Translations under genes and position numbers: made by a program
Assembly: GCF_016617715.1 (NCBI RefSeq)
Contig: NZ_CP067225.1
Coordinates: 1,116,001-1,180,000 of the forward strand
Direction: 5' to 3'
DNA length: 64,000 nucleotides
DNA from: Paracoccus sp. MC1862
GTDB lineage: Bacteria; Pseudomonadota; Alphaproteobacteria; Rhodobacterales; Rhodobacteraceae
Shown: in pieces, positions 6,615 through 51,369 of the stretch
Numbering within the stretch: position 1 is the stretch's first letter
Layout: each line of letters starts with the position of its first letter
Notes under the pieces: model-generated
Seen by the model: only the letters and a program-made list of their open reading frames with translations
What the model was told of the DNA's origin: nothing
The model's database searches: none

Positions 6615-6682
6615 TGTTGGAACAGCCAATTCCTGGCCATTTCGAGGTTTGCATGGCCATTTCGCAGTCAAAATAAGGCCAT
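6615..6682 (+). repeat. left end of the Tn7-like element with three transposase-binding-like repeats
   Basis: Starts TGTTGG at 6615. TGGCCATTTCG occurs at 6634 and 6654, exactly 20 bp apart, and AGGCCAT follows at 6676. This tight 20-22 bp spacing resembles the overlapping TnsB sites of the Tn7 right end. Read on the bottom strand, the inner part matches 51257-51288 at 24 of 32 positions. Confidence 0.65.
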
Positions 6683-6860
6683 CCGCCTTCGCGCGGTCGG
6701 AACACGCAGACAGCCCGCAGTTGCGCCCCTCGCAGGAGCGGCAAAGACCCGAGTCGGCTTTTCATGTCACGGCTATGTCTGATTGGCATATCCAAGGGGT
6801 ACAATGTGCCAGCGGCGACGATAGCCTTCGGGCACACGTATTTGGCATCCCGGTTTTTCG

Positions 6861-7648
6861 ATGTCCGACATCCTGGCCGACCTGATCCTTTCTCTTGCAC
6901 CGGAAGACGGTTCCGCCATCGGCAACGCCGCCATGATGGCCCGAATGCGCGCGCGGGTGCCGAACATGACAGACGACGACTACCTTGCCGCGCGGGACAT
7001 TTTCGTCGGTGCCGGGCTGCTCGTCCGCGGCAGAGGTCGCGGCGGATCAATCTTCCTGATCCCTAATCCGGACAAGGACGATGACCTCGAAGACGAGGTG
7101 GGCGGCTTCGACCTGCTACCGACCGAAGAGTCGCCAGTGCCGCAACGAAGGGTGATCACGAGCCGAACCACACCCCGCAAGGCAGATGGGCCTGTTCAGG
7201 TGCTGAGCTATCGCCATGGCGAGACGCGGGTGAACAACCCCGAGGTCGGGATGGACCATGCCGGCCTCGATCCGGATAGCGAGAAAACGGTCCGGGCCTA
7301 TCACCCGCGTCTCGACGCGGTCCTGAACTTCAACAGCGCGCGGGCGGGGATCGAGAGGCTGATCGACGAGGCGCTGGCCAGCAGTGATACCGAGCGGATG
7401 CGGGACGCGCTGCAGGAGCTGAAGCGGCTGCAGGCACCGTATATCTGAACTGGACAGGCAAGGCGGAGCGGACGAGCGTCGAGGTCGATACCGGCTCGCT
7501 CCACGTGCATGAGCCTGTGGACCCGGCGCCGATCCTGGCCAACGCGGCGAAGCGGCTGAAGGGCAAGAATGCGGCGGCGCAGTGGCGGCAGCCGGACCTG
7601 TTCGCGGCCCCGTTCGAGAACCTGCCCCTGCGTCAGGCGCTGGGGTAA
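6861..7648 (+). pseudogene. N-terminal remnant of a type III restriction-modification methyltransferase (Mod)
   Basis: The first ~60 residues form a winged-helix-like module ending GRGRGGSIFLIP. Residues ~110-195 (YRHGETRVNNPEVGMDH ... LKRLQAPY) match the N-terminal signature of type III Mod proteins. The frame stops at 7446, but reading on after removing one AT of the repeated TATAT at 7440-7444 gives LNWTGKAER ... HVHEPVDP ... PFENLPLRQALG, again the Mod signature, to a TAA at 7646. In intact relatives the next residues lead to the SAM and DPPY motifs; here they are absent and IS3 sequence follows. So there is a 2-base duplication plus loss of the whole catalytic part. No res subunit is present. 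Confidence 0.75.
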
Positions 7649-8760
7649 TCTTCCCCGTTTTAACGGGGTGCGGCCGTAGAATTCACGCGGCCATCTTCAG
7701 TTTCTGGGCAGGGGTGACCCCGCCGATGCCCATGTTCCGGCGTTCGTTGTTGTAAGTCCACAGCCACTCGGTGGCGATGTCCTGCACCTCCTCGATGGTT
7801 TCAAAGATGTAGAGGTCCAGCCACTCGTGCCGAACGGTGCGGTTGTAGCGCTCGACATAGGCGTTCTGCTGGGGCTTTCCGGGCTGGATGTAGGTCAGGG
7901 CAATGCCCGGCTTCCCGGCCCAGGTCGTCAGCGTGGAACTCACATATTCCGGGCCGTTGTCCACCCTGATGGACAGGGGCTTTCCGCGCCATTCGATGAT
8001 CTGGTTCAGGGACCGAACGACCCGTTCGGCGGGCAACGAGAAGTCGACCTCGATGCCCAGACCCTCGCGGTTGAAGTCGTCCAGCACGTTCAAGAGACGG
8101 AACTGCCGCCCGTCAACCAGCCGGTCGGCCATGAAGTCCATGGACTAGGTGGTGTTCGGCGTTTCCGGCACGGCCAGTTCTTCGGGCTTCTCCCGCTTCA
8201 GCCGTCGTCGCGGCTTGATGCGCAGGTTCAGTTCCAACTCGCAGTAGATCCGGTGGACCCGCTTATGGTTCCAAACATGTCCTTTGACGTTGCGCAGGTG
8301 CAGGAAGCACAGGCCGAACCCCCAGGTCTTGTGCGCCCTGGTCAGCCCGACCAGCAGGTCGGCGATCAACTCGTTCTCTTCGACGCGCTTCGGGCTGTAG
8401 CGGAAACAGGTCTCGCTCACGCCGAACGCCCGACAGGCCAGCGCGATGCTGGCCGCCTTCGTCGCCACCGCCTTCTCGGCCAACTCCCGGCGCTGAGCTG
8501 GCCGCGTCACTTTTTTCCAAGCGCCTCGCGAAGCAGATCGGCCTGCATGCTGAGGTCCGCAAACATGCGCTTCAGCCGCCGGTTCTCGTCCTCAAGGGCC
8601 TTCATCTGGCCCATCATGGACGCATCCATGCCGCCATACCTGGCGCGCCACTTGTAAAACGTCGCGCTGCTGATTCCATGCTCGCGGCACAGCTCAGGCA
8701 CAGCCAGCCCGCCCTCGGCCTGGCGCAGCACGCCCATGATCTGGGCTTCGGTGAAACGGC
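7649..8760 (-). mobile_element. IS3-family element (IS407-like), truncated and mutated
   Basis: Carries orfA and orfB on the bottom strand. The left boundary is approximate: Mod-derived sequence ends at 7648 and a 16-bp palindrome (CCCCGTTTTAACGGGG) follows at about 7654. On the right the element is cut at 8760 by the IS21 end, just inside the orfA start, so its own right inverted repeat is missing. The lost piece is not found on the far side of the IS21 element. Confidence 0.7.
7683..8510 (-). pseudogene. IS3 transposase OrfB with an amber codon
   Basis: Catalytic (rve) half of the IS3 transposase, about 275 residues. The frame is broken by TAG at 8145-8147, between PETPNTT and SMDFMADRL. 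Relatives have Trp there, so this is TGG changed to TAG, one transition. The DDE triad is otherwise present: Asp in SMDFMAD, Asp in RVDNGPEY and Glu in [10 protein letters not shown]. The last residues ([13 protein letters not shown]) look normal. The N terminus overlaps the orfA end by 4 bp, as usual for this group, where OrfAB is made by frameshifting. Confidence 0.85.
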
Positions 8761-8773
8761 TGTTGATTTCCAC
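8507..8773 (-). pseudogene. IS3 OrfA, N terminus replaced by IS21 sequence
   Basis: Helix-turn-helix protein (RFTEAQIMGVLRQAEGG ... ISSATFYKW) followed by a leucine-zipper-like stretch (MKALEDENRRLKRMFADLS), ending ALGKK. Only the part up to 8760 is IS3. The apparent GTG start and first codons (8761-8773) come from the inserted IS21 end, so the native start and the first few residues are lost. Confidence 0.8.
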
Positions 8774-8862
8774 TCGGAACTGACCCGGGTAGGCGCGTAA
8801 TTTCCACTGAGAACTGACCCATGTGAACCTTCCCCAAAGCGGAGCGCGGCGGGGGTAATGGA

Positions 8863-10403
8863 GTGATCCACATGGGACTTTTGAACATCATCCGACGCAT
8901 GGCGTTGCGGGAGAAGCTGCCGATCCGGGAGATCGCACGGCGGACCGGTCTGTCGCGCAACACCATCAGGAAGTATCTGAACGCTGGCACCATCGAGCCA
9001 AGGTTCGCGACCCCGGAGCGGCCGAGCAAGCTTGATCCGTTTGCCGAGAAGCTGGCGGCGTGGCTGAAGACGGAAGCCGGCAAGTCACGCAAGCAGCGCC
9101 GAACGCTGAAGCAACTCCATGCCGACCTCGTGGCGCTCGGCTTCACCGGCTCCTACGGCCGGGTCGCGGCCTTCGCCCGGCAATGGCGGATGGACCGGCA
9201 GCGCGAGCAGCAGACGACGGGCCGCGGCACCTTCGTCCCGTTGGCCTTTCGGCCGGGCGAGGCGTTCCAGTTCGATTGGAGCGAGGACTACGCGGCTCTG
9301 GGGGGCGAGCGCACGAAGCTTCAGGTCGCCCATATCAAGCTGGCACACAGCCGGGCCTTCCTGGTTTGGGCCTATCCGGCTCGCAAACCCACGAGATGCT
9401 GTTCGACGCCCACTGGCACGGGTTCCGCGTCTTCGGCGGCGTGCCGGGCCGCGGCATCTATGACAACATGAAGACGGCGGTTGACCGCGTCGGTCGCGGC
9501 AAGGAACGGCAGGTCAACATCCGCTTCCTCGCCATGACCAACCACTATGTCTTCGAGCCGGAGTTCTGCAATCCTGCCGCGGGATGGGAGAAGGGACAGG
9601 TCGAGAAGAACGTTCAGGATGCCCGGCCTCGTTTGTGGCAGCCGATGCCGAACTTTCCTGACCTGGCGGCGCTGAACGCATGGCTGGAACAGCGGTGTCT
9701 GGAGTTGTGGCGTGGAATCCCGCACGGGGTTCTGCCCGGAACCGTCGCCGACGCCTGGGCCGAGGAGCAAACTGCGCTGATGCCGCTGCCGCCTGCCTTC
9801 GACGGCTTTGTCGAGCGGAGCAAGCGTGTCTCACCCACCTGCCTGATCAGCTTCGAACGCAATCGCTACAGCGTGCCAGCGTCCTTCGCCAACCGGCCCG
9901 TCAGCCTGAGAGTCTACCCGGATCGGCTGATGGTTGCCGCCGAGGGACAGATCCTGTGCGAACATGAGCGGGTGATCCAGCGCTCCCATCACCTGCCGTC
10001 GCGCACGATCTATGACTGGCGGCATTATCTGGCTGTCATCCAGCGCAAGCCCGGGGCCCTCAGGAACGGTGCGCCCTTCGCGGAACTGCCCCCGGCCTTT
10101 TGACAGTTGCAGGACCGCATGCTGCGACGTCCCGGTGGCGATCGCGAGATGGTCGATATCGTGGCACTGGTCCTGCACCACGATGAGCAGGCCGTGCTGG
10201 TTGCGGTGGAAATGGCTTTGGCCGAGGGCGTTGCGACCAAGACCCATGTGTTGAGTCTCCTGCACAGGCTGATCGATGGCAAGACCAGCGGGGGTCCTTG
10301 CATCGTTACTCCGCAGGCGCTGGCCCTGCGCCACGAGCCAAAGGCGAACGTCGAACGCTATGACGATCTGCGGGCGCAGATCGGAGACCGCCATGCGTCA
10401 TGA
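8863..10403 (+). pseudogene. istA: IS21 transposase IstA, frameshift plus stop codon
   Basis: GTG start at 8863 (or ATG 8872). The N terminus has the IstA helix-turn-helix (IREIARRTGLSRNTIRKYL), then the rve core beginning AFQFDWSEDYA. A one-base shift lies near 9378-9388, after FLVWAYP. The next frame continues THEMLFDAHWHGFRVFGG, with GRGIYDNMKTAVD and GWEKGQVEKNV, which supply the remaining catalytic acids. A TGA at 10101 then replaces an expected Arg codon (CGA), after which the frame runs QLQDRMLRRPGGDREM to the true stop at 10401. Two independent lesions, so it is not functional. Confidence 0.88.
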
Positions 10404-13182
10404 TCCCGCCAGTGCTGCCATCGTCATCATGCTCCGCAGCCTGAAGATGCACGGGATGGCCCAGGCCGTCGCCGACCTGATCGAACAGGGGGCGCCGGCA
10501 TTCGAGGCGGCCGTGCCGATCCTGTCCCAGCTGCTGAAGGCCGAACTGGCGGAACGCGAAGTGCGCTCCATTGCCTATCACATGAAGGCCGCGCGCTTCC
10601 CGGCCTACAAGGATCTCTCGGGCTTTGACTTCGCTGCCAGCGAGATCAACGAGGCCACGGTGCGGCAACTGCATCGCGGTGACTTCATCGATGGCGCCCA
10701 GAACGTCGTGCTGATCGGCGGCCCGGGCACCGGAAAGACCCATGTCGCGACCGCCCTGGGCATCCAGGCCATCGAACACCATCGCCGGAAGGTCCGGTTC
10801 TTCTCCACCATCGAACTGGTCAACGCCCTCAAGCAGGAAAAGGCCAAGGGCAAGGCCGGACAGATCGCTGAAAGCCTGACTCGGCTCGATCTCGTGATCC
10901 TGGACGAGCTGGGCTACTTGCCGTTCAGCGCCTCGGGCGGTGCCCTGCTCTTCCATCTCCTGAGCAAGCTCTATGAGCGCACCAGCGTCGTTATCACGAC
11001 CAACCTCGGCTTCAGCGAATGGGCCTCGGTCTTCGCCGACGCCAAGATGACCACCGCGCTGCTCGATCGCCTCACCCACCGCTGCCACATCCTGGAGACC
11101 GGAAACGACAGCTTCCGCTTCAAGGCAAGCTCAGGCGATCACGTTTCATAATGCACCTCGTTTGTTAGAATCCCGGCAGATTCATGGACCTGTTTGCAAC
11201 ATTATCAAGCGCTTGCCGTGGACGACGCGCGGCAATCTCCTGCAGTTCTATCCGCACCGCCTCGGTCTCCAGCGCGTCGACCGGTATTTTCCACGGGGCG
11301 GAATACATGATCTGGGTTGCGGGCAGAGTTTGCGACCGGATCAGCTTGTGAACCGAAGCGACGCACACGCCGAGCCGCTTGGCAGCAGCGTCGACGCTCA
11401 AGGTCTTCGGGACCTCTGCATCAGGATCATAGGGAGGGATCGCGAGCCTGTCGCGCAATTCCGCGACACGAACGGTTGTCCATGTCTCCCCATCCTCGGT
11501 GCGGCAGCGCATCCGGTTGAGAGTGACTGCCAGTTCCCTGTCAGGCCAGTGTCCGGCAAGTTTGCGGAGGACCTCCGGGGCCGTGAGCGTGCGGCCTGGC
11601 GGGAACCGCCCTGTCTTGCGCCGGGCCAGCCTGACCTCGGTGTGGCGTCCGCCGATCCAATGGATGAGCAGAATGAACTCGTTCTCCTCTGCGTCGATAT
11701 CGATCACGACCTCCTCGATCAGCAGCCTGACCAGACGTTGTCTCGCGCGGGCATCGGTTCCCGCCGCGTTCCAGACGGACGGCAAATCCGTGGCGAGCCG
11801 CATGAGAACGGCGGGATTGACCCCGGGCTTCGCCCGGATCTCCGCGCCGAGTGCCGCCAGCTTGTGCTCTACCGCCGCCACCCGCTCCAACGCCGCGTTC
11901 CAGCGCGCCTCCAGGGTTCGGGCGACATGCCGTTTGGCGGGATCGACGTGCTCGTAGCGCCGCTCCGCCAGTTCCGCCGCATATCGGGCCTCATCGAGTT
12001 CCTTCTCGACCGCAAGCCGGACGGTCTCCTGCGCCCGGGCGACCTGCTGCTCCGCCAGAAGGGCGGCCTGCACGGCCTGTCCGGAGACGGCCTCGAGAAG
12101 CTGACTCGCGACGAGCGCATCAATACTTCCCCCGCCGGCACCGATGCACAGACCGGCCCCGACATGTCCGTCATCGCCGCGGCACTGATAACGGTGCGAC
12201 AGGTCCGTCCCCGTCTTGTAGAACACCCGCATCATCCTGCCGCAGCGCGCAACCGGGCCATGCCCGACAACAGCGCCTGTCCGCCACGTCCCGATTTGCG
12301 GGCCGTGCGTTTTTGCATATGCGCGTTCTCTTCCAGCATGCGGCAGTTCTCCTCGTAGGCGCGCCAGTCGAGATATCCCTCGTGGTTGTCCTTGATCAGC
12401 ACGCTCCAGTCCTCGAGCGCCCGGTGGTGACCGCTGGTCTTGCGCGCTTGCCCATCCACCACCCCTGTCCGGTTCCCGGTCCGCCCGAAGGCATAAGCGC
12501 CAGCATAGATCGGGCTGTGCAGAACTTGCATCACGCTGTGATAGGCGGGCTTGCGCCATGCAATCTTCCGCAAGGCGCCGTTACGCAGCACCACCGGCAG
12601 ATGGAGATCCGCCGCACGCAGCCACAGGAACACCTGCCGCCCGCTGCCAAGCTCGCGGAACTTGGCGAAGATCAGGCGGATGGCCTGCTGGACCCGCTCA
12701 TCGGGATCCATCTCGATCCTGTCGTCCTCACTCCAGCAGAAGCCCGGCGGCAGGGTGAAGCGCAGCTCGCCCCGTCTCGCCTTCGCGTCTCGGGCTGCCA
12801 GCCCACGCTGGCGAAGGAGGCTCAGTTCGTATTCCGACATCGTTCCCTTGAGCCCGAGCAGCAGCCGATCGTTCATCAGGCGGGGATCGTAGACCCCCTC
12901 CGGGTCGACCACCAAGGCTCCCGTCAGGGCGCACAGATCGATCAGGTGATGCCAGTCGCGGCCATTGCGGGCGAGGCGCGAAGCCTCGATGCAATAGACC
13001 GCGCCCACCGTCCCGGCACACACTTCCGCAACCAGGCGCTGGAAGCCCGGCCGCGCGATCTGACCGGAACCGGAGCGCCCCAGATCTTCGTCGATCACCC
13101 GGACCTCCGCGAAGCCTGTGTCGCGGGCAGCTTCGGCCATCTGGTATTGCCGCTTTTGGCTCTCCAGATTGCCAAGGACCTG

Positions 13183-14604
13183 GGTAGCGTCCGTCAACGT
13201 GGTGTAATTTTGGGTATGGTTCCGGGCCGTCATGATCAGGCGGCTCTCGGTGTAATCTGAAGCGGTTTTTCCTCCTCGCTTGCTGGCGGGCTCAGGTCGG
13301 CCATGGCCTCGACCTGCATGTATCGGTGCTGAAGCTGCCACTCGTCGTTGGCTTCGAGGAGGACGGCTCCGATCAGGCGGACGATGCTGTCCTCGTTGGG
13401 GAAGATGCCGACGACATCGGCGCGGCGCTTCACTTCCTTGTTCAGCCGCTCCAGTGGGTTCGTGCTGTGCAGCTTGGTGCGATGCTGCGCCGGGAAGGCC
13501 ATGTAGGCGAGCACGTCGGCTTCGGCGTCGTCCATGAAGGTTCCCAGCTTCGGCCATCTGGCGCGGAGCTGATCGGCGACATGGCGCCATGTCTGCACCG
13601 CGTTGTCGTGATCGGGCTGGATGAAGGCCTGCCGGATCGCGGCCGCGACCATGGTGTGCTGGCCCTTGGGAACGTAGGCGAGCGCGTTGCGCATGGCGTG
13701 AACCCGGCATCTTTGCCAGGTTGCGCCGAGCACGCGGGTGATGGCGGCCTTCAGCCCTTCGTGGGCATCGGAGATGACCAGCTTCACACCGGTCAGCCCA
13801 CGACGCACCAGATCGCGCAGAAAGCTGGTCCAGAACGGCTCGGCCTCGGACGGGCCGATATGCAGCCCGACGATCTCGCGCTTTCCGTCCGTGCTGACGG
13901 CCACTGCGATTATCGCCGCCACCGAGACGATGCGCCCACCCTCGCGCACCTTCAGGTAGGTAGCGTCGAGCCACAGATAGGGCCAGTCGCCGGCGAGAGG
14001 ACGCCCGAGGAAGGCATTCACCCGCTCGTCGATGTCCTTGCACAGCTTGGAGACAGACGATTTCGAGATACCGGTCATGCCCATGGCCTGCACCAGATCA
14101 TCGACCTTGCGCGTCGAGACGCCATTGATCCACGCCTCCTGGATGACGGCGACCAGCGCCTTCTCGACCGTCTTCCGCGGCTCCAGGAAGCCAGGAAAAT
14201 AGGCCCCGGAGCGCATCTTCGGGATCTTCAGGTTCAGCGTGCCAAGCCGGGTGTCGAGCGAGCGCTCGCGATAGCCGTTGCGCCAGGTCTGGCGGGTCTC
14301 GCCGCGCTCGTAGCGGCCAGCGCCGATCAGGCCGTCGACATCGGCCTCCATGATCAGCTGCAGCACGTTCTCGGCAATGAGGCGCAGGAAATCGGGATCG
14401 CCGCTCTTCGCAGCAAGTTCGGCCAGCGGTAGTCTGTCGTCGGTCATCGGGGGTTCCCTTTCGGTCAGGTTGAAGTCCATCAACTCCACCTTATCCGACG
14501 GGCCCGGTGACCACCCGATGCAGGGCGAAACCGACGGCGAAATCTTCACCGCAAAGTCCACCCGCATTGCTCCCCGAAATTACACCACCAGCGTGGACGC
14601 TACC
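13183..14604 (-). mobile_element. IS256-family element 1, with 8-bp target repeats
   Basis: Inverted ends GGTAGCGTCC ... GGTGTAATTT (left 13183, right ending 14604). Flanked on both sides by AGGACCTG (13175-13182 and 14605-14612), the 8-bp duplication typical of IS256. 1422 bp. It separates the catalytic serine region of the recombinase from the rest. Confidence 0.92.
13236..14447 (-). CDS. IS256-family transposase, intact
   Basis: 403 residues; catalyses copy-out/paste-in transposition of its element. Opening MTDDRLPLAELAAKSGD; the DDE acids lie in LWLDATYLKV, VISDAHEGL and, near the C terminus, STNPLERLNKEVKRR. The conserved GISKSSVSKLCKDID segment precedes the core. Start at 14447 is preceded by GGGAACCCCCG and gives the family length; a longer frame upstream begins in the element's end and is less likely. 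No lesion seen, so this copy may be active. Confidence 0.92.
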   Translation of the reverse strand: MTDDRLPLAELAAKSGDPDFLRLIAENVLQLIMEADVDGLIGAGRYERGETRQTWRNGYRERSLDTRLGTLNLKIPKMRSGAYFPGFLEPRKTVEKALVAVIQEAWINGVSTRKVDDLVQAMGMTGISKSSVSKLCKDIDERVNAFLGRPLAGDWPYLWLDATYLKVREGGRIVSVAAIIAVAVSTDGKREIVGLHIGPSEAEPFWTSFLRDLVRRGLTGVKLVISDAHEGLKAAITRVLGATWQRCRVHAMRNALAYVPKGQHTMVAAAIRQAFIQPDHDNAVQTWRHVADQLRARWPKLGTFMDDAEADVLAYMAFPAQHRTKLHSTNPLERLNKEVKRRADVVGIFPNEDSIVRLIGAVLLEANDEWQLQHRYMQVEAMADLSPPASEEEKPLQITPRAA

Positions 14605-14683
14605 AGGACCTGGCTCATCGTCGATTGCCGGACATAGACGATCGCACTGCGAGCGAGGTGCTCAGCGGTGATCTTTACATGCA

Positions 14684-15142
14684 TCATTTTGCGAGCCCTC
14701 CGATATCTTCTCTGCGGCCGTCAGCAGCAACTCGGCCAGTGCTTCCAGAATTGCGGGTGTCGATGGTGCCGCCGGAGGACGGTTCCGGCTGTCGTCCAGT
14801 GCCAGGCAGAGCTGCGTTGGCTGCGAACGGGATCGGGGTCGGCAAGGCATGCGTATCCTCCTCTGGAATCGGTGCTCCAGAGGATGACGCAACCTCGGCA
14901 CGACGCATCAGATCCAAGGTTCGGGCGAGCGCTTCCAAGGCTTCAAGCGCGACAACGGGCGGTCCGCTGTCCAGCCGCGCACAGTAGGCGGGATCGCACA
15001 TCCAGGGCGGCAAGGTCCGGAAGAATCCGGGTCGTTCTTCTACCAGGATCGAATCCGAACCGTGCCGATGACCACCATCACGGGCGCGCAGGACGCGGCC
15101 GAACAGCGGGTGCCAAGGATACTCGATCCGCAGATCTTGCAG
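14684..15142 (-). CDS. small recombinase-linked protein, start uncertain
   Basis: About 152 residues if translated from CTG at 15142; no ATG or GTG lies in frame. The N-terminal third (RIEYPWHPLFGRVLRARDGG ... LPPWMCDPAYCA) resembles a small-domain family often found next to serine recombinases (DUF5372-like, from memory), and the rest is low-complexity Pro/Gly/Ser. The stop overlaps the recombinase start (AAATGATG), so the two were translationally coupled. The missing standard start, 18 bp from the element edge, suggests an unusual start codon or a start supplied by the target DNA. Confidence 0.5.
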   Translation of the reverse strand: MQDLRIEYPWHPLFGRVLRARDGGHRHGSDSILVEERPGFFRTLPPWMCDPAYCARLDSGPPVVALEALEALARTLDLMRRAEVASSSGAPIPEEDTHALPTPIPFAANAALPGTGRQPEPSSGGTIDTRNSGSTGRVAADGRREDIGGLAK

Positions 15143-15289
15143 TTTGTATGTAGAATGAGAGCCGATCGGGCGCAGCGGTCAGGAAAACGAAGGAGGCCGG
15201 CCATGCCTTGACCCAAGCCTGACCCCCGAAACATAACCTGAAGGTGGGTCACTTCTTGATGGAAAACCCGGGTCAGTTCCGGGTGGAAA

Positions 15290-15478
15290 TCAACATCCCT
15301 CATACCGAGTGAAATTGGCCCCAAAGCTCAGGTTCCCCCGCTGGACGTTCACCACGCCACCTTGGGTGTCGCTTCCGATGTCGGATTGCAGAAAGAATCC
15401 GTCGGCAGCTGCCGGGGTAGCGCAAAATACGGCAATGGCCGCAACTGCGATGGCCCCAAGGTGTCGGATTTTCGTCAT
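15290..15478 (-). pseudogene. exported protein truncated by the IS21 element
   Basis: Start ATG at 15478. The first ~25 residues are a signal peptide (MTKIRHLGAIAVAAIAVFC, cleavage near ATPAAA-DG). The mature part (GFFLQSDIGSDTQGG ... LSFGANFTRYEG) looks like the first beta strands of a periplasmic or outer-membrane protein, but it stops where the IS21 end begins at 15295. Family not recognised. About 60 residues survive. Confidence 0.55.
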
Positions 15479-15603
15479 GTCGGCACAACCTATGATGGAA
15501 CGAGTCAAGTGGTAGCACAATCCTGACGTATTCAGAGGGAGGCCTCAAGGAAGCCGCGCGGCCTCGCAGATACAGAGCCTTGCGGACATCCGAAGCCCAT
15601 GAC

Positions 15604-15637
15604 TGTTGATTTTCACCCGGAACTGACCCGGGTATGG
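15604..15637 (+). repeat. orphan copy of an IS21 left terminus
   Basis: TGTTGATTTTCACCCGGAA continuing CTGACCCGGG matches the IS21 left end at 8761 with few differences and in the same orientation, but no istA follows. With the right end at 15295 it brackets the truncated exported-protein gene. Probably the remains of a second IS21 copy. Confidence 0.6.
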
Positions 15638-41146: not shown

Positions 41147-41180
41147 ATTGCCAGCATTTCAGCGATACTGTGGAGGCATC

Positions 41181-42404: not shown

Positions 42405-43737
42405 GGGAGTGTCCTGAACTCCGTGTATCTGATCCGGCCCATGCGGTTTTCAGATACAGTCAGGCGTCGAAGCGCCCGGCGAACATTATGGCCAGCTGAT
42501 TTCGTGCGGCAACCCATTCCCGGACGGCCCTGCCGCCCTTCTCGAAGTTGCGGATGGCCAGAAAGATCAGCTTGGTGGCAGCCTCTTCGGTGGGGAACGA
42601 GCCCTTGGTCTTCAGGGTTTTTCGCAACACCCGGTTCAGCGATTCCACCGCGTTGGTCGTGTAGATGATCTTCCGGATCGGGACGCTGAAGGCAAAGAAC
42701 GGGATCACCTCGGCCCATGCCCGGCGCCAGGCCGGGGCAATGGACGGGTATTTCCCGGCCCATGTCCCCTCGAAGTCATCGAGCCGGCGGGCGGCCTCCT
42801 CGGCAGTCGGGGCCTCATAGATCGGGCGCAGGTCGGCGGCCACCGCCTTGCGGTCTTTCCAGCTGCAGAAGTTCATCGAGTGCCGGATCAGGTGGACGAT
42901 GCAGGTCTGGACCGTGGTTTCCGGGAAGGCGGCGGTGATCGCCTCCGGGAAGCCCTTCAACCCGTCCACAACGGCGATCAGGATGTCCTGGACGCCGCGG
43001 TTGCGCAGCTCGTTCATCACCGACAGCCAGAACTTGGCACCTTCGTTGTCGGCGATCCAAAGCCCAAGAACCTCGCGCTCGCCCTCCCGCGTGACGCCCA
43101 GGGCGATGTAGACCGCCTTGTTCCGCACCATCCGGCTGTCGGCATCGCGAATCTTGACGCGCAGGGCGTCAAAGATGACGATCGGATACATCCGGTCCAG
43201 CGCCCGGTGCTGCCAGTCCCGGACCTCCTCCAGCACGGCATCGGTGACGCGGCTGATCAGGTCCGGCGACACCCGCAGTCCGTAGAGATCCTCGAGATGC
43301 GCCTGGATGTCGCGCACCGAAAGCCCGGCAGCATAGAGCCCGATGATCTTGTCATCCACTCCGTCGATCCGGGTCTGGCCCTTCCTGACCAGCTCGGGCT
43401 CGAAGCTGCCGTCCCGGTCGCGCGGCACCGCCAGCGGCACCTCGCCATCCGAGCCCTTCACCCGCTTCGTCGCGGTGCCATTGCGGCGGTTGGCCTGGTC
43501 GGGCGGCGGCTCGGCTCCAGCCTCATAGCCCAGGTGCGCAGTCAGTTCGGCCCCGAGCATCCGCTCCATCAGCCGAACCTTCAGTTCCTTCATCAGCCCG
43601 GCATCGCCGAGCAGATCCTCGGGCCGCTTGCAGCCCTTCAGCAACTCGTCCAGCAGCTCGTTGGAAATCGTCATCTTCCTTGCTCCTCTCAGGAAGCATG
43701 GACCGGGTCAGTCATACACAGAAGATCAGACACTCTC
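42405..43737 (-). mobile_element. IS256-family element 4, with 9-bp target repeats
   Basis: 1333 bp. Inverted ends share AGTGTC and GTGTAT. Flanked by GTGGCGCCC at 42396-42404 and 43738-43746. It landed in the last codons of the small gene at 43967-43689. The 255 bp between the LysR stop and this element contain no gene I can see. Confidence 0.92.
42460..43674 (-). CDS. IS256-family transposase 4, intact
   Basis: 404 residues. DDE acids lie in YPIVIFDALRVKI, LIAVVDGLKGFP and TTNAVESLNRVLRK. N-terminal segment GCKRPEDLLGDAGLMKELKV is typical. ATG 43674 is preceded by AGGAGCAAGGAAG. No lesion; from a different IS256 subgroup than elements 1-3. Confidence 0.94.
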   Translation of the reverse strand: MTISNELLDELLKGCKRPEDLLGDAGLMKELKVRLMERMLGAELTAHLGYEAGAEPPPDQANRRNGTATKRVKGSDGEVPLAVPRDRDGSFEPELVRKGQTRIDGVDDKIIGLYAAGLSVRDIQAHLEDLYGLRVSPDLISRVTDAVLEEVRDWQHRALDRMYPIVIFDALRVKIRDADSRMVRNKAVYIALGVTREGEREVLGLWIADNEGAKFWLSVMNELRNRGVQDILIAVVDGLKGFPEAITAAFPETTVQTCIVHLIRHSMNFCSWKDRKAVAADLRPIYEAPTAEEAARRLDDFEGTWAGKYPSIAPAWRRAWAEVIPFFAFSVPIRKIIYTTNAVESLNRVLRKTLKTKGSFPTEEAATKLIFLAIRNFEKGGRAVREWVAARNQLAIMFAGRFDA

Positions 43738-43967
43738 GTGGCGCCCAGCACCGCCACGAGCTCCAGGCGCTGGTGCGCGGTCATTGCTTCCAGGTCCACC
43801 TCGAAGGCTTCCCACGCGAACTCTCGCACCTGTCCTTCATTGAGCGTGCCAATATAGTAGCCATAGTTGTCTTGGTGCCGATACGACACTGTCAAAGTGC
43901 CGTAGCGTGCAGTCCAAACGTCGCCGTCGTGTGTGATTGTAATCTGCAACGGGTCGATCTGCATCAC
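43689..43967 (-). CDS. small unknown protein, last codons replaced by IS256
   Basis: 92 residues as it stands, no recognised family: beta-rich N terminus (DGDVWTARYGTLTVSYRHQD) and an acidic helical C terminus (FAWEAFEVDLEAMTAHQRLE). From 43737 down the codons belong to IS256 element 4. Removing the element and one 9-bp repeat gives a stop two codons after GAT (GATR-stop), so the native protein was about 78 residues and nothing essential need be lost. Divergent from the genes leading into tnsA. Confidence 0.55.
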   Translation of the reverse strand: MMQIDPLQITITHDGDVWTARYGTLTVSYRHQDNYGYYIGTLNEGQVREFAWEAFEVDLEAMTAHQRLELVAVLGATRVSDLLCMTDPVHAS

Positions 43968-44212: not shown

Positions 44213-44614
44213 ATGTTCGACTCTCGTCCTTCTGAAGTTCGCCGTGACATCCTCGAGCGTGTCCGCCGGTTCTTCTTCGATTATGGCCATGAGCTCACCA
44301 TGGCCGCCTCGATGCTCGGCGGTACCGCTGCCGAGGCGCGGGTGGTATCTTGCGCCATCCATCTCGACCGGAGCCCCTGCATCGATCGCCGCCTCAAGCG
44401 CGATCTTGCGGCCATTCACCGGTGTCTTGCACTTCATGATGTGGGCGATCCGGATGACTTCGACATCTCCCTCTTTTCGACGCTTCATCCCGCGTCCGCC
44501 GAAGTCGAGACAATCTGCCTGCTGACGGACATGCTCGAGGATCTGCTCCACGAGATCGACAGCATGGGGTGCGATCTGGCTGGCGAGGTTGATGGTCCCC
44601 TGATCGCTGCCTGA
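44213..44614 (+). CDS. unknown protein upstream of tnsA (1)
   Basis: 133 residues, predicted mostly helical, with several Cys and Leu-rich stretches (DILERVRRFFFDYGHELTMA; VETICLLTDMLEDLLHEIDS). No family recognised. A bottom-strand frame covers the same bases, but this one has a purine-rich leader (AGAAAAGAGCGAAG), lies in the direction of the tns genes and shows better codon-position GC bias. 245 bp separate it from the divergent small gene; an A/T-rich patch near 44070 may hold its promoter. Possibly an accessory gene of this transposon family. Confidence 0.5.
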   Translation: MFDSRPSEVRRDILERVRRFFFDYGHELTMAASMLGGTAAEARVVSCAIHLDRSPCIDRRLKRDLAAIHRCLALHDVGDPDDFDISLFSTLHPASAEVETICLLTDMLEDLLHEIDSMGCDLAGEVDGPLIAA

Positions 44615-44688
44615 CATCTCTCTCGATCCCCCGGGGATCGAGCCTTGACGCCCGTCCCCAGTACGCCGGGCAACCCTGGAGAGCTGTT

Positions 44689-45132
44689 ATGAAGATCAAC
44701 CCTGTAGCCGCGCCCTCGCTCGACGGGCTGGCGACTGAAACCATCCGTCTCAGACGTGAGCTCCATGAAATGGCGCACGCCGTCTACGTCGGCGGCAACA
44801 TCCGCGACTTCGGGTTTGCGGCGCGGACACTGGGTCGGCTTGCGGAGCGGCAGCCATTTGATAGCCGTGACACCGCTTCTTTCCAGGCGTTGCGCGGCAT
44901 CATCGATACCGACCTCAGCCGAGAAGTCGTCGGGACTGAACGACGCTTCGTGGAGACTCGCTACGACAACGATGGTCAGCATGGTGAGGTTCGCGAGATT
45001 CCGGTCTACAGTGCACGCGGCGAAACGCTCCTGCGCCTGCAAGAAACGCTCAACAGCTTCCTCGCTGCACGTGACGCGGCCTTGGATCGGATTGCAGCGG
45101 ATCGCGCCCTCATGCAACTGCTGCGCACCTGA
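44689..45132 (+). CDS. unknown protein upstream of tnsA (2)
   Basis: 147 residues, soluble and helical (ATETIRLRRELHEMAHAVYV; LRLQETLNSFLAARDAALDR), no recognised family or metal motif. Preceded by GGAGAGCTGTT and 74 bp from the previous gene. Same orientation as tnsA, whose start is 233 bp downstream. It may be cargo or an accessory transposition/target protein; nothing in the sequence decides. Confidence 0.55.
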   Translation: MKINPVAAPSLDGLATETIRLRRELHEMAHAVYVGGNIRDFGFAARTLGRLAERQPFDSRDTASFQALRGIIDTDLSREVVGTERRFVETRYDNDGQHGEVREIPVYSARGETLLRLQETLNSFLAARDAALDRIAADRALMQLLRT

Positions 45133-45365
45133 TTGCGCAGGCGTGGCACCGTTCCCGGGGCGCGAGCCAACGCGCTCCTGGCCACGCCAGATTACGATGT
45201 AAACGGTTATTTCTATCAACCGGACAACGTCTTGCGCGAAAGATGCAGGTTTTCGCTTTGCGGATCCGCAGGTGGATCAATTTCCCCAGAACGAGAGACA
45301 CAGTCCTGATCCGCCATCAGGACAACAACCCACCAACCACGCCTCATGAACCGGAAAAACCGACA

Positions 45366-46038
45366 ATGCACGAGAACTTCGACCGGGGCATGCAGCTTCC
45401 GGAACCCCCTACAGCCGCCCGCAGGATTACCATGGGCTCCAAGCACCATTTCACCGGTGCGCTCGTCTTCGGTGAAGGGGGCGGGAAGACCATGGAGGTC
45501 GAAAGCCACACCGAGATGCAGATCGCGCTGGTGATGCTGGCTCGCCCCGAGGTGATCGACCTCGAAAACCAACTGCCATTTCGCTGGGCCGACGACCAGG
45601 ACGTCCTGCGCACACACTACTTCGACTTCCGGGTCACGCTCCAAAAACGGAAGTCGGGTGGCGCTGATCGTCAAGTCCGCACACAAGGCGGCGACGGCGA
45701 AGTTTCAGGCGACTGCACGTCGGATCGCGTCCCAAGTTCCTCAGGCGTTCGCCGACCGGGTCTGCGTGATGACCGAGAAGCACCTCGACCCGGTCGAGGT
45801 TCACAATGCCGAACTCATCCACGCTGTCCGGGTGCCCGACCCGGAAGCGGACGCGGCAATCCTCAGTGCCGTCAGCGGAATCATCGGCGCCGTTCGGATC
45901 GGCGATCTGGCGGAGCAAACCAGGCTGCGAGGCCGTGGCTTCCGGGCCGTCGTGCGCCAGATCCGTAGCCACCACCTCGTGCTCGCGGCCCATGAACGCA
46001 TTGCACCGGACGCCTTTGTCCGCCGGAGGGCTGCGTGA
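45366..46038 (+). pseudogene. tnsA: TnsA-like endonuclease with one-base insertion
   Basis: TnsA cuts the 5' strands at transposon ends in Tn7-like systems. Reading MGSKHHFTGALVFGEGGGKT ... VESHTEMQIALVMLARPEV ... THYFDFRVTLQ in one frame and, one base on, NGSRVALIVKSAHKAATAKF in the next reconstructs a restriction-endonuclease fold with Glu (SHTEMQ), Asp (YFDFRV) and Lys (LIVK) in TnsA order. The shift sits in AAAAA at 45643-45647; four A's would restore the frame. Start ATG 45366 is the likely one. Ends at TGA 46036, sharing one base with the tnsB ATG. A -1 slippage at A5 could in principle still make some full-length protein. Confidence 0.78.
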
Positions 46039-48272
46039 TGCTCGACCTCATGCCCAGCGAGAGCACAACGCGTTTCGCCTTCAGCAAGCATGATGCTGTG
46101 CTTGTTCACGGCACCAGGTATCAGCCCGTCGACGAAACCGACAAGGGATACATCCTGGTTCGTGCCGACGGGCAGGGAGTTGCGGAAAGCTACTCCCGGA
46201 CCGAGATGGCGCGGCTCGTCGAACTCGGGCACGTCGCGCACGAACGGAACGCTTTCCTTCCGGAAAGCGCGCGCCGGCGGCTCGAGCTCCCAAGCGAGAT
46301 GCTCTCAACCATGGGAGAAAAGAAGCACCGCAAGGCGAAACGCCGAGAGGCGGTTGTTCTGGCATTCCTCGCCCTGGAGGAGGAGGGCCGCGTCAAGCGG
46401 ACCGACGCATCCATCCAGTCCGCTTTGAATGACATCAAGGTCAGAGCGGCAGTGTTTTGCTCTCAACGGAGCGCGTGCGACGAAAACGCCATCGATCCCG
46501 ACACGCTGATCATGCCGAAGGTCGGTGTCAGATCGGTTCGGCGTTGGCTCAGTGCTTATGTGAAACTCGGGCTACCCGGCCTTTACGATGCCATCGAAAA
46601 CCGCGGCAATCGCCAATCGCGCCTCCGTCCCGACGAACTTGCCCTCATGTCCCGCGTGGTCGGCGGGTATCTCGACGACCGCAAGCCGTCGATCTCCACC
46701 ATCTACGAGAACGTGCAATAGGAGTTCGATGAGGAGAACCGCAGCCGCCGCGCGCGGGGCGCGGCCGAACTGGTCTCGCCGTCTCGTGAAACCGTGAGAT
46801 TGGCGGTCAGATCACTTGATCCATTCCGCTGCGATCTCTCCCGCGAGGGGTCGGCCCGTGCGCGCAACAAGTATGCGCCGGTCGGGAAGGGTCTGGATCT
46901 GACGCGGCCGCTTCAGCGCGTAGAACTCGACACATGGAAGGTCGACCTGATGACCCTGGCGGCTGCCTCCGGGCTCTCCCATTTCATGTCCGACGAAGAC
47001 AAGGCACGTCTGGGTCTCGACAATCAGAAGACTCGATGGCACCTGACCGTGGCGATCTGCGCGACCACGCGCTGCATCCTCGCCATGCGGCTCTGCCGTG
47101 CTCCAAACGCCCAGGCCACCCTGCAGACGATCGAGATGATGCTGCGCGACAAGGGTGTCTGGTCTGATGCTGTCGGCGCACTCAGCCCGTGGGCCTACTA
47201 TGGAACGCCCGAGTTGGTGGTAATGGATTGCGGCACCGAGAACACGTCCTTCGACGTGCGACTTGCGTTGCGCGACCTTGGCATCCGCGTGGAGCATGCA
47301 CCCGCGGGGCTGCCGGAGATGCGGGCGCGCATCGAACGGTTCTTCGGTACTATCTCGACCGGCCTCACACCGCGGCTTACGGGGCGCACGTTCAGCAGCA
47401 TGATCGAGAAGGGCGACTACGATCCCTAGGCGCGCGCTGCACTGACTGCAGACGATCTGTGTGCTGCGATCATTCGCTGGGTTGTCGACATCTATCACCG
47501 CAGCGCCCATTCCGGGCTCGGGGGAGAAACCCCTGCCAACTGCTGGCGGCGCCTCATCGAACAGTTTGGCGTATGCCCCGCTCCTGACTTACGACGTCGG
47601 CGGCTTGCTCTTGGGACGCGCTTCAAGCGGACCGTTTCCAAGACCGGCGTTACGGTATTCGGCATCCGCTATCATTCCGAGGAATTGGCCCGCTGGATGC
47701 TGCGCACGAAGAAGCGCGAGGTAAACCTGCGCTGGTACCGTGAGGACCTGGGGGCGATTGCGGTCGAGCTCGATGGCGAGTGGTATGAGGTGCCGGCCGT
47801 GTTTGATCGCTTCAAGGGCGTATGGGCGCAAACATGGCTGGCAGCCGCACGAGAGCTCCAGATCCGCTTCAAGCATGAGGTCACCTTCGATGAAGAGATC
47901 GTCTTCAAGGCAATCCGACACATCGACGAGATCAATGGACAGGCGATGAAGCGCATAGGCCTCCTCGCCGACGACTGGTCGGAGGCGCGGATTCTGCAAG
48001 AGGAGGAGCGGCTACTGATCGGTTTCGACATGTCCGAGCGCAGCCTGCCGCTCGCTTCTCCCGACACACGCTTCGGCGATGAGATGGCGGGGGGAGCGGG
48101 AGACGACATCGGCTCAGACGAAGTTACGACGTCTCGCGAAAAAAAAAAACCGCGGAACGCTCGTGGATTCGTTTCCGCGCCCACCGCTTCGACTGCAGAT
48201 CCCTTGGGTGACGCGGCTCCGAAGGGAGACGCTGACGACGACCCAGGATTTGAGATCGAGGACAAGTGGTGA
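46038..48272 (+). pseudogene. tnsB: TnsB-like DDE transposase with two in-frame amber codons
   Basis: 744 codons of continuous frame broken only by TAG at 46719 (after IYENVQ) and TAG at 47427 (after GDYDP). The DDE core straddles them: Asp in RVELDTWKVD, Asp in LVVMDCGTEN and, 36 residues on, Glu in MRARIERFFG. The C-terminal domain is Mu/TnsB-like (VFGIRYHSEELARWML ... WYEVPAVFDRFKGVW), and the N-terminal part has helix-turn-helix-like segments for end binding. Both stops are explained by CAG to TAG. Followed by a poly-A run in its acidic tail (48139-48147). Overlaps tnsC by 4 bp. Confidence 0.83.
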
Positions 48273-49225
48273 CTACAAACCCGCAGATACAGTGCAGTGA
48301 AGTGCATGCCGTCATCGACGGCCTGCGCTCCAAATACGTGAAGTTGCCGCGTGATCGCGAGTTTCGCACGCATCTCGATCGGCTCATCAAACGAGATGAT
48401 ACGGGCCGCCAGATCGCGGCACCGGTAGTGTTCACGTCGACAGGCGAGACGCGGGGTATCGCCCTCGTGGATGGTGCAGGCGGCGGAAAGACCTCCCTCG
48501 TGGATCATGCGCTCCGCGAGCACCCTGCCCTTCAGACCACTGAGGCAGGCAGGATGCCTTGGCTCGGCGTGCGGGTGCCCAGCCCCGCCACCCTGAAATC
48601 GCTGGGTCTGGAGATCCTTCGGCAGGCCGGCTATCCCGAGGCTCGTGGACTGAGGCACGCTTGGGAGATCTGGACCCAGGTGCGCTATCGGCTGCAGCTG
48701 CTCGGAACCGTCGTACTCTGGATCGACGAAGCTCACGACCTGTTTCGGAACGGTTCGGCTCGCGAGATCGAGGATATTCTCAAGACTTTGAAGTCGTTGA
48801 TGCAGGGTGAAGGAGCCGTCATTGTCATCCTGACCGGCATCGAGACGCTGTGGCAGATTGCGTCCTACGACGACCAGGTGAAGCGCCGCTATTCCAGGAT
48901 CGAGCTGCCGTCGGTCACCATGGCTGGAGACGAGAAGATCCTCTGGAAGCTGATTGAAACCTTCTCGGCACAGGCGAAACTTGCCGCACCGGAGAAGAAC
49001 GATCTTGTCGCACGCCTCATTCATGCCGGCCGTGCCCGCTTTGGTCGCTGCATCGAACAGATCATCAATTCGATCGAGGTGGCACTTCACGAGGGTGCAT
49101 CCAGCCTTGAGATCGAGCATTTCGCTCGTAGCTTCGACATGCAGGAGGGCTGCGCCCCCGGCGAGAACATCTTCCGTTCGCCACGCTGGTCGCAGATCGA
49201 TGTCGACGCGCCCCGCCGCGCCTGA
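48269..49225 (+). CDS. tnsC: TnsC/TniB-like AAA+ transposition regulator
   Basis: 318 residues from GTG 48269 (an adjacent GTG at 48266 is possible); overlaps the tnsB stop. Walker A GAGGGKTSL (about residue 75), Walker B TVVLWIDEAHDL, sensor region VIVILTGIETLWQ, arginine-rich VKRRYSRIEL. TniB-type ATPases polymerise on target DNA and link the TniQ target selector to the transposase. No lesion. The short, Tn5053-like size differs from the 555-residue Tn7 TnsC. Confidence 0.88.
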   Translation: MTTNPQIQCSEVHAVIDGLRSKYVKLPRDREFRTHLDRLIKRDDTGRQIAAPVVFTSTGETRGIALVDGAGGGKTSLVDHALREHPALQTTEAGRMPWLGVRVPSPATLKSLGLEILRQAGYPEARGLRHAWEIWTQVRYRLQLLGTVVLWIDEAHDLFRNGSAREIEDILKTLKSLMQGEGAVIVILTGIETLWQIASYDDQVKRRYSRIELPSVTMAGDEKILWKLIETFSAQAKLAAPEKNDLVARLIHAGRARFGRCIEQIINSIEVALHEGASSLEIEHFARSFDMQEGCAPGENIFRSPRWSQIDVDAPRRA

Positions 49226-49270: not shown

Positions 49271-51112
49271 ATGCCTACCCTTTTTCCATTCCTCCCCTTT
49301 GATCCGTTTGAAACGCCGGTCTCATTCGCAACCCGTCTTGCCGCACTTCACACCGGGGGCCGGCTGGTGCCGTTTCTCCACGACATCGGCGTAAGATCCG
49401 CAGCGCTCGCCGCCGGTGACACCGAGGCTGTGCAGCGCCTCTGCGCCTTGGCCGGGATCGATAGCGCTCCTGTGCTTCGCAACACCGCGCGGACGGTTGG
49501 GAGACGACGTGCGGACCTGCGCGGCGAGGAGATCACGGCCGAGTTCCTCTCGAGCCCGGACACCGTGTTCTGCCCTGCCTGCCTCGCGCAGGACGATATC
49601 AAAGGAGGTGACAATCCCGGGACGCGTCGTGGGCGTCTCGCCTGGACCTTGCGGGTGGTTCGAACCTGTCCGCACCACGAGATCGCCCTGGTGCACCTGG
49701 CAAGAAACAAATGGAGCGATCAGTTCCACGAGCTCGCCGAGCGCGTTCCGGAGCGTGGCGGCGCTCTGTTGGCGCTTGCCGACAACTGCGAGCGTCGATC
49801 GCCTTCTCCGCTGCAGACCTACGTCATGCAGCGTCTCGAGGGTGAGGAAGGGCCGGAATGGCTGGATGGGCAGACCCTCGAGCAGGCCGTTCGAGCGACC
49901 GAGATGCTGGGAGCGCTGATCGCGTTTGGCGCCGGAGCGAACCTCACCGCACTTGACGCGTCGGGATGGGACCGCGCCGGCCGCATCGGCTACGCCTGCA
50001 CGGCGGCTGGCGAAGCGGGAATTCGCGATGCCCTGCAGCAGGTCCAGGCGGCGTTTCGCGGCAAGGCCAAGCCGGGCCGGCGCAAGGTCTTTGGTCGCTT
50101 CTACGAATGGCTTTCCTCGACAAAGGGAAAAAAGGATCCGGGGGACATCAAACGGATCCTGCGCGAGCATATTTTCGACACCATGGAGGTGGCGGCTGGT
50201 GAGGAGATCCTCGGCGCCACGCTGAAGGAAAGACGGCTCCACAGCGTGCGCTCGCTCGCCTCGGAGGTTAACCTCAACTCGCGCACTTTGCGGAATTTCC
50301 TCGCCAGTCGCGGCCTGGTGCCTGCCGATGAAGCGCTCAGCGAATACCATGTGTTCGACGCAAATGCAGGGCGGACCATCGCCGCATCCGTCTGCCGATC
50401 GATACACGTCATCTCGCTCCCGAAAGCGCTGAACTGTACGCGTCCCCAGGCCGACCAACTCCTTGCCGAGCGGATATTGACGCGCGTGGGCGGAGGGCCG
50501 GGCATTGCACCCGGGCGGACCCAGCGTGCCGCAGATGCGTCCCATGTCGCTGATTTCCTCGTGGCACTCCGCAGAAATGCGATGATGGTCGGGACGGCGC
50601 CGGACGGCGTGGTGTCGATCTCGAAGGCTGCCGAAAAGGCGAAGGTGCCCTGCTACGCCATCGTGCACCTCATCCTCGGTGGATACCTGCAGCGAGTGTT
50701 CCAGCTTGCCGATGTTGCTGGATACGCTGGCGTGCTCGTGGACCCGATAGAGGTTCAGGCGCAAATTCATCACGTTCAGGCACACCTTTCGGCATCCGCA
50801 GCGTTCAAGATGATGTGGCTGCCGGTGGACACCGGCTGGGCTCTCGTCGATGCCCCTGATGATTTGGATCTGAAGCCGGTCGTGATCGAGGGTCCGTCCG
50901 GCTACCGGTTCTGCCGCTTCGACAGGAAGGATGCTTCCGAGTTCATGGAGCGGGTCACTACCGTGCATCTGATCGCCCTTCGCCTGGGCGTCGAGCACAA
51001 GGAGGTTGTCCGTCGGCTGAAGATCGCCTTCGTGCGCCCTGCGATTTCTCGCCGCGAGGCAGGAATGGATCTTTACAGCACCGCAGACCTCCCGGCCTCC
51101 CTCCGATCCTGA
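49271..51112 (+). CDS. tniQ: TniQ/TnsD-like target-selection protein
   Basis: 613 residues. N terminus FPFLPFDPFETPVSFATRLA is the TniQ opening. Zinc motif: CPACLAQDD (about 97) and, after LAWTLRVVRT, CPHHEIALV. The C-terminal two thirds contain at least two helix-turn-helix-like stretches (SVRSLASEVNLNSRTLRNFL; VHLIALRLGVEHKEVVRRLK) as in TnsD, the sequence-specific att-site binder, so this is more TnsD-like than the short TniQ of Tn5053. The nearby tRNA-Leu gene is its natural candidate target. Intact. Confidence 0.85.
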   Translation: MPTLFPFLPFDPFETPVSFATRLAALHTGGRLVPFLHDIGVRSAALAAGDTEAVQRLCALAGIDSAPVLRNTARTVGRRRADLRGEEITAEFLSSPDTVFCPACLAQDDIKGGDNPGTRRGRLAWTLRVVRTCPHHEIALVHLARNKWSDQFHELAERVPERGGALLALADNCERRSPSPLQTYVMQRLEGEEGPEWLDGQTLEQAVRATEMLGALIAFGAGANLTALDASGWDRAGRIGYACTAAGEAGIRDALQQVQAAFRGKAKPGRRKVFGRFYEWLSSTKGKKDPGDIKRILREHIFDTMEVAAGEEILGATLKERRLHSVRSLASEVNLNSRTLRNFLASRGLVPADEALSEYHVFDANAGRTIAASVCRSIHVISLPKALNCTRPQADQLLAERILTRVGGGPGIAPGRTQRAADASHVADFLVALRRNAMMVGTAPDGVVSISKAAEKAKVPCYAIVHLILGGYLQRVFQLADVAGYAGVLVDPIEVQAQIHHVQAHLSASAAFKMMWLPVDTGWALVDAPDDLDLKPVVIEGPSGYRFCRFDRKDASEFMERVTTVHLIALRLGVEHKEVVRRLKIAFVRPAISRREAGMDLYSTADLPASLRS

Positions 51113-51152
51113 GAAGACCACGCCAGATTTCCTTCAACGGTAAATTCTGAAC

Positions 51153-51177
51153 GGCCGCCCGTAGGGGCGGCCTTTTT
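51153..51177 (+). terminator. rho-independent terminator of the tns operon
   Basis: GGCCGCCC, loop GTAG, GGGCGGCC, then TTTTT: a perfect 8-bp GC stem followed by five T's, 41 bp after the tniQ stop. Confidence 0.92.
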
Positions 51178-51256
51178 CGTTTGGAAGATTTGCGTTTGTC
51201 GCCTACATGAAGTTAGACATCGCTCGATCATCGACAGGAATGTATGAGGTCGAGGG

Positions 51257-51369
51257 GATGGCCACTATTTGCTTGCAAAATGGCCAAGTGCGCCGCCGAC
51301 CCGAAGCGCCGCCTTAGAAAAAACAATGACTTACCATGCAGAAATGGCTTGGAAATGGTTGTCACAACA
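51257..51369 (-). repeat. right end of the Tn7-like element with spaced repeats
   Basis: Ends TGTCACAACA at 51369. GGCCA/GGCTT-type units occur at 51257, 51279 and 51341, spaced more widely than at the left end, like the Tn7 left end. The stretch 51257-51288 matches the inverted left end at 24 of 32 positions; the outer 29 bp match at 23. Confidence 0.65.

Follow-up and report, generated by a model that had tools for sequence, protein, structure and literature searches.

An old, broken Tn7-like element with a catabolic gene set inside it, just past the end of nrdJ in Paracoccus sp. MC1862

What is the 45-kb block that separates nrdJ from a tRNA-Leu gene in Paracoccus sp. MC1862, and what placed it there? 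The window analysed here comprises 64,000 nucleotides of contig NZ_CP067225.1 (assembly GCF_016617715.1, positions 1,116,001 to 1,180,000 of the forward strand), in which nrdJ (4373..6595, + strand), recognised by the Pfam ribonucleotide reductase models and encoding an adenosylcobalamin-dependent enzyme, is followed by the block and then by tRNA-Leu(TAA) (51523..51608, − strand), which is host DNA. The block is an old, broken Tn7-like element with a catabolic gene set inside it, lying just past the end of nrdJ. Positions 6615–51369 are very probably a decayed Tn7-like transposon, as the edges match the ends of that family. The new part of the finding, and the part worth following, is the attachment site. 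We propose, with a probability of about two in three, that a widespread Rhodobacterales Tn7-like family has a dedicated site in the 3′ end of nrdJ, recognised by its TniQ proteins, and that elements stack, recombine and decay there, leaving mismatched flanks and fixed islands with captured catabolic genes.

An earlier note on this DNA had proposed a Tn7-like transposon with definable ends. That delimitation held and an empty site was found for it; the element is nevertheless dead now and is sited by nrdJ, not by tRNA-Leu. The 29 bp starting at 6615 agree at 23 of 29 positions, without gaps, with the reverse-complemented 29 bp that end at 51369, reproducing the inverted copies described there, and each is the other's best match in the window; over all positions and both strands the runner-up reached 19/29 for the left end and 18/29 for the right. 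A closer-matching third end near 44 kb, upstream of tnsA, which the earlier note had raised as a threat to its boundaries, was not found in this comparison. A two-end pattern allowing up to three mismatches matched the 3.63-Mb genome solely at 6615 and 51369, and the reversed control pattern matched nowhere in it; the pattern was derived from these two sites themselves, and its informative part is the absence of further ones. The nrdJ-proximal end (6615..6694, + strand; the left end of the earlier note) starts with TGTTG and has GGCCATTTC repeats at 6635 and 6655. Being upstream of tnsA, it is the counterpart of the right end of Tn7; a profile built from five family ends, none of them at nrdJ, gives it 19.4 bits, and it agrees at 23 of 29 positions with the end of a sister element in G107 (other genomes of the genus are given as G numbers). 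The distal end (51257..51369, − strand; formerly the right end), at the empty-site junction, has the inner repeat pair GATGGCCA...AAAATGGCCAA and the terminal TGTTGTGACAACC. Judged by sequence, both have the form of Tn7-like ends, TGT...ACA with arrays of repeats that are putative transposase sites.

Homologues of tnsA, tnsB, tnsC and tniQ span 45.36–51.11 kb, just inside the right edge as had been stated, although a frameshift and two stops among them had been overlooked. Aligned with the corresponding P. aminovorans genes, the tnsA homologue (45360..46038, + strand; 36% identity, split over two frames) switches frame near 45640, and tnsB (46035..48272, + strand; 42% identity over 721 aligned columns) has in-frame TAG stops at 46719–46721 and 47427–47429. 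The tnsB pieces match Pfam rve (1.6e-6, under the curated cut-off) and Mu-transpos_C (2.2e-7), the DDE and Mu-type C-terminal parts of such a transposase, in a broken gene. Because tnsA and tnsB are broken, the element would be unable to move itself. Both remaining genes are open: tnsC (48266..49225, + strand; 319 amino acids) encodes a TniB-type AAA+ protein (Pfam TniB 1.7e-18), 73% identical to the G107 homologue, and tniQ (49271..51112, + strand; 613 amino acids; Pfam TniQ 4.2e-14) encodes a protein of the TniQ/TnsD group with 42% identity to TniQ of an nrdJ-located element in G101, which by analogy is likely to be the target selector. The TnsA endonuclease separates Tn7 from Tn5053-type elements, and a tnsA-homologous open reading frame (ORF) adjoins tnsB in 29 of 30 loci taken around tnsB (L102–L131). 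At E ≤ 1e-60, tnsB is listed at 65 places in 49 of 125 genus genomes, with an internal stop in two, the window's copy being one; this count ignores frameshifts, and the G107 copy is listed without stops yet lies in two frames. The family is thus common in the genus, while the window's copy appears to be dead. No CRISPR protein families were found among the window proteins scanned against Pfam, no PDB sequence matched TnsC, TniQ or a family TnsA, and a TnsC protein scan of the genome contigs returned no relative.

A relative lacking the block at nrdJ/tRNA-Leu, which the earlier note had called for, was found in G116, the nearest relative and the sister of the window on the nrdJ tree (SH-aLRT 97). 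Its nrdJ and tRNA-Leu flanks are adjacent: the two queries both match contig C74, at 91% and 89% identity and 71 bp apart, and 6615–51369 is therefore an insertion. From the nrdJ stop to the tract CAGACAGTTTTTCC, which in the window starts at 51376, immediately outside the distal end, there are 23 nt in G116 and 25 nt in the window with its flanks joined; between conserved anchors the joined flanks measure 21 nt in the window and 19 nt in G116. About 20 nt at the junction align poorly between the two, so that the exact junction is set by the transposon ends and not by alignment alone. In G090 and G060, the remaining two close relatives, nrdJ is followed by different DNA.

The nrdJ-proximal end starts 19 bp past the nrdJ stop. 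Tn7 itself inserts shortly past the stop of glmS, oriented so that the end upstream of tnsA is the one nearest to glmS. nrdJ is present in 110 of the 125 genus genomes, and 3′ flanks were taken from 107 (G118, G111 and G059 have partial matches without the 3′ end), two of them under 200 nt (G019, 54; G076, 91). With a profile of five family ends, none of them at nrdJ, 12 of the 107 flanks scored at least 5 bits, the window included, against none of 1459 control windows (drawn from inside and upstream of nrdJ and searched on one strand) and none of 2140 mononucleotide shuffles. A second-round profile, trained with five nrdJ flanks added, the window's among them, so that the first round alone is independent of nrdJ, found 29 of 107 flanks (28 at ≥8 bits), again with the window, one of the controls and none of the shuffles. 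An initial profile that included one end of the G101 array (23/107 flanks, 1/1459 controls and 1/2140 shuffles at ≥5 bits) was superseded by the clean five-end profile. All 29 ends point away from nrdJ and none the reverse way. Where a match covers the model from its first position (21 cases), it lies 11–23 bp past the stop (14–23 without the weakest, G074), and 27 of the 29 projected starts fall 14–24 bp past it. By these sequence comparisons, the 29 flanks with their single orientation would represent site-specific, oriented insertion beside a conserved gene. A complete 28.1-kb element sits at nrdJ in G101 (contig C1, 1829842–1857972), in the order end, tnsA, tnsB, tnsC, tniQ, end. In 40 kb behind nrdJ of G011, G087 and G063 (the last outside the 29 profile matches) there was no tns match at E ≤ 1e-5.

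Several observations weigh against this proposal. The tnsA homologue of the window matches no Pfam TnsA model, and a single empty-site genome, G116, was recognised, which is 86% complete. Besides the window's genome, 28 are occupied; 16 of these have a tnsB match (E ≤ 1e-12), but only 3 have one near nrdJ and on its contig, G101, G097 (reading towards nrdJ) and G091 (partial, reverse), a lower bound, as some contigs end soon after nrdJ; many occupied sites are probably remnants. Between 200 and 1500 bp behind nrdJ (126.6 kb) the profile gave 10 rows: strong ones in G044 and G054, which are second ends, one of 12 bits in G071, probably the remainder of an end that other DNA has split, and seven weak ones (5–7 bits) on both strands. 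Finally, the closest sister element, in G107, is not at nrdJ but 11 bp past the stop of a gene whose translation is msrB-like, so that relatedness of the tns genes is no simple guide to the site.

This sister (contig C44, 122650–143054; 20.4 kb) has a TnsC 73% and a TniQ 60–71% identical to those of the window, with tnsB and tniQ each in two frames and with other surroundings. In blastn against 80 kb of its contig, window positions 44081–51099 align at 71–74% in three blocks, and 6.6–44 kb does not align; the transposon core is therefore about 44.1–51.4 kb plus the far end, and the remainder is variable cargo. The conserved part includes DNA around two small ORFs (44213..45132, + strand; 133 and 147 amino acids), which lies beside tnsA in the sister as well (44081–45126, 73.8%). 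We note that G107 C44:122650 could be a further attachment site. The G008 element lies 2 bp past the stop of a glutamine-synthetase-like gene, also named from its translation. Taken with the msrB-like site, this indicates that the family uses several gene ends, among which we infer that TniQ chooses. The G101 element resembles that of the window in its place at the nrdJ 3′ end, its orientation and its order, and differs in its size, in having tnsA, tnsB, tnsC and tniQ each in a single frame, and in a second near end 5 bp on. The element on plasmid IV of P. aminovorans (NZ_LN832562) shares gene order and end type with the window (TnsB 42%, TnsC 45%), but is on a plasmid, beside arsenic-resistance genes, with no stops in its four tns frames and with a short TniQ of 311 amino acids; no far end could be located for it. 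In P. aminovorans, Qingshengfaniella, P. seriniphilus, G008, G003 and G016, tniQ is followed by an end no more than about 0.3 kb downstream; the Limimaricola copy offered only a degenerate candidate, which was left out of the count. A family member on a Thioclava plasmid (L077) has ends at 4294 and 16694 with GCACT on both sides, a 5-bp duplication. P. seriniphilus p420573 has two facing tniQ genes with transposon ends 2 bp apart (L075, about 22027; L248, 20726–25154), and the same replicon carries nrdJ, with tnsB about 1.7 kb away and reading towards it. On a Qingshengfaniella plasmid (L076, 16936–16992) a distal end apparently abuts a near end with 0 bp between, the first base of the near end differing from the T of the family.

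With Tn7 the window element shares the tnsA-tnsB-tnsC-tniQ order and TGT...ACA ends with repeat arrays, and insertion shortly past the stop of an intact conserved gene with the end upstream of tnsA towards that gene. Unlike Tn7, it lies at nrdJ instead of glmS, has its cargo between the gene-proximal end and tnsA, lacks a target duplication and has broken tnsA and tnsB genes. We propose that the element, or an ancestral array, would have inserted 19 bp past the nrdJ stop with its tnsA-upstream end facing nrdJ, giving the order nrdJ-proximal end, cargo, tnsA, tnsB, tnsC, tniQ, distal end. In analogy with TnsD, the target recognised by TniQ would be the conserved 3′ coding end of nrdJ, to which it would recruit TnsC and the TnsAB transposase; insertion sequence (IS) elements and the catabolic island would fill the cargo space. 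Other Tn7-like elements also have dedicated chromosomal sites: passages of one paper describe yhiN, comM, parE, tRNA, guaC, yciA, ffs and rsmJ for Tn6230, Tn6022, Tn7017 and the CRISPR-associated transposons (CASTs) (PMC11406308), and the Tn7-type sites named so far amount to a handful in the review passages available. Neither nrdJ nor ribonucleotide occurs in the available main text of PMC8649781 and PMC11406308, nor nrdJ or 'ribonucleotide reductase' in that of PMC10293859. Literature searches combining Tn7-like or tniQ with nrdJ, ribonucleotide reductase or Paracoccus, outside whose scope lay supplements and most subscription papers, returned no description of an nrdJ site. If the proposal is true, nrdJ is another 'safe' gene-end site, reused within one genus, which would allow a direct test of TniQ target switching and could be put to use for inserting DNA at chosen places in alphaproteobacteria. 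The proposal also points to a way for catabolic genes to become lodged in a chromosome and to a reason why such islands may lack the expected duplication.

Another possibility, which in our judgement falls a little short of an even chance, is that the catabolic island never was transposon cargo and that IS elements carried it into an already inserted, perhaps already dead, transposon. The island (24542..42149) encodes a TctC-type binding protein, an OB-fold protein, a thiolase-like protein, an acetate-CoA-ligase-like enzyme, a MaoC hydratase, two acyl-CoA dehydrogenases, an enoyl-CoA hydratase, a short-chain dehydrogenase/reductase, two CoA-transferase subunits, a TRAP fused permease, a TAXI binding protein and a LysR regulator; its substrate, at a guess, is a branched or cyclic organic acid. 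On its left border lie an IS66 region (about 20503–24433) and an IS110 fragment (24436..25050), and on its right, before the tns block, an IS256-family element (42405..43739, − strand); its third-position GC content exceeds that of the tns genes. Homologues of the island-core DNA occur in 13 of 124 other genus genomes (68–74%), none with tnsB (E ≤ 1e-60) within 100 kb on the same contig. In one of these genomes, G097, a weak tnsB fragment with a stop (C2:74535–75125) lies about 19 kb from the island homologue (C2:52943–55861). A comparable set of genes, differently ordered, is present on a Limimaricola plasmid, with no tns genes in the 25 kb shown. Against a later arrival stand the position of the island wholly within the ends and the absence of an island match (E ≤ 1e-50) from G116, and the flanking IS elements differ, so that a simple composite transposon is not indicated. 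The island may thus be cargo or a later guest. Catabolic genes directly behind nrdJ in relatives, which would have spoken against the transposon in the earlier note, were seen in none of the 13 genomes as far as these are comparable (island and nrdJ on one contig in six and on different contigs in six, G109 having no nrdJ match); the nearest island on one contig, in G136, is 17 kb from nrdJ on its 5′ side. The further idea in that note, of a Tn7-family element moving a catabolic pathway, went unsupported, the element being immobile and no second copy of the cargo between such ends having been found, and movement of the pathway by the transposon would have to be inferred. Passages of Benler et al., who delimited 6,549 Tn7-like transposons by their end repeats, indicate that complete pathways are rarely carried and include acyl-CoA dehydrogenase and acetyl-CoA acetyltransferase genes among the cargo (PMC8649781); as far as these passages go, catabolic cargo is therefore uncommon but known in kind. 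A Tn7-like region of about 80 kb is described in Vibrio, again from part of the source (PMC6537148).

A 5-bp target duplication is missing from the window, as had been noted: TCTTG stands on one side and TGACA on the other. One explanation would be the single insertion of one element, with the duplication lost later through mutation or small changes in the flanks. The two ends do match one another, and the joined flanks, only 2 nt longer than in G116, indicate no large flank loss; yet TCTTG and TGACA share almost nothing, though the flanks beyond them are 89–91% conserved, and three other elements likewise have no duplication, leaving it absent from all four gene-end elements with both flanks known (G101, CTTCT/TTTGT; G008, TGATT/ATTGT; G107, GCGGG/GTTGC). 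Stacked ends also occur. In G101 (C1:1857972–1857978) and G008 (C1:246533–246539) exactly 5 bp separate a far end from the near end of the next element, and in G044 (L237) and G054 (L229) two near ends lie in tandem within about 0.2 and 0.4 kb of nrdJ on its 3′ side, the picture expected if entire elements had shrunk to their ends. We consider a single insertion unlikely on these grounds. The missing duplication most likely fits a deletion between two elements stacked at nrdJ: stacking followed by deletion would leave a hybrid whose flanks do not match, the present arrangement would result exactly if the two insertion points were 5 bp apart, and the window element is probably such a hybrid. 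No intermediate was found. Flank exchange in the Tn7-like Tn7706 of Rhodococcus, where, in the part of the paper available, swapping end flanks between copies restores known plasmid sequences, is a precedent for such a history (PMC12915292).

It is also conceivable that the nrdJ hot spot reflects common descent of one old insertion without repeated targeting. Nearly identical end sequences in G101, G056, G135, G011 and G050 would agree with this, and decayed ends may score as absent. On an nrdJ tree limited to the 81 of 107 genomes for which the complete gene was retrieved, 19 of them occupied at ≥8 bits, however, the occupied state requires 17 changes, 14 of them forced by well-supported branches, and is unclustered, shuffled labels giving a mean of 17.1; the site has therefore been occupied or cleared many times. 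There are, in addition, several distinct end subtypes and empty sisters such as G116, and we regard common descent as highly improbable. Least credible is an integrase-mediated insertion of a genomic island at tRNA-Leu, with borders alike by chance, for which speak a serine recombinase gene inside the block and the general use of tRNA genes as island sites, and against which stand the distance of about 154 bp from border to tRNA, edges corresponding to those of a transposon family that has tns genes of its own, and the absence of any end-profile match from 29 tRNA-Leu loci of other genomes (83.8 kb; the window's own locus excluded). The last result also separates the element from the tRNA-targeting CASTs (I-B2, I-D). 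On the sequence evidence, tRNA-Leu is incidental and the nrdJ 3′ end is the proposed attachment site.

The earlier note had counted at least eight IS elements and we agree, as IS remnants: 7683..24433 is an IS graveyard with an IS3-type fragment, an IS21 (about 8757–11134), a serine recombinase region that contains an IS256-type element (about 13183–14604), a second IS256-type transposase fragment, an IS5 (about 17594–18644), a further IS5-like piece and the IS66 region named above, which contains another IS256-type transposase frame. Of the type III restriction-modification remnant claimed there, what stands is an ORF of 195 amino acids, probably a fragment (6861..7448, + strand), with eight plasmid relatives at 50–61% identity, six of them annotated as site-specific DNA-methyltransferases; the type III assignment is unsupported. 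PADLOC scans gave no defence system, matching solely through the helix-turn-helix domain of the ORF at 18620–19225. Within the island, a direct repeat of 170 bp, 96% identical, lies at 25051–25220, ahead of the TctC-type domain, and at 26416–26585, at the start of the OB-fold ORF. An ORF of 473 amino acids (35007–36428) has no Pfam or NCBIfam match; its relatives, 36–60% identical, are on Rhodobacterales plasmids, nine of the ten matches listed being hypothetical and one unannotated, and one relative sits in the Limimaricola catabolic cluster.

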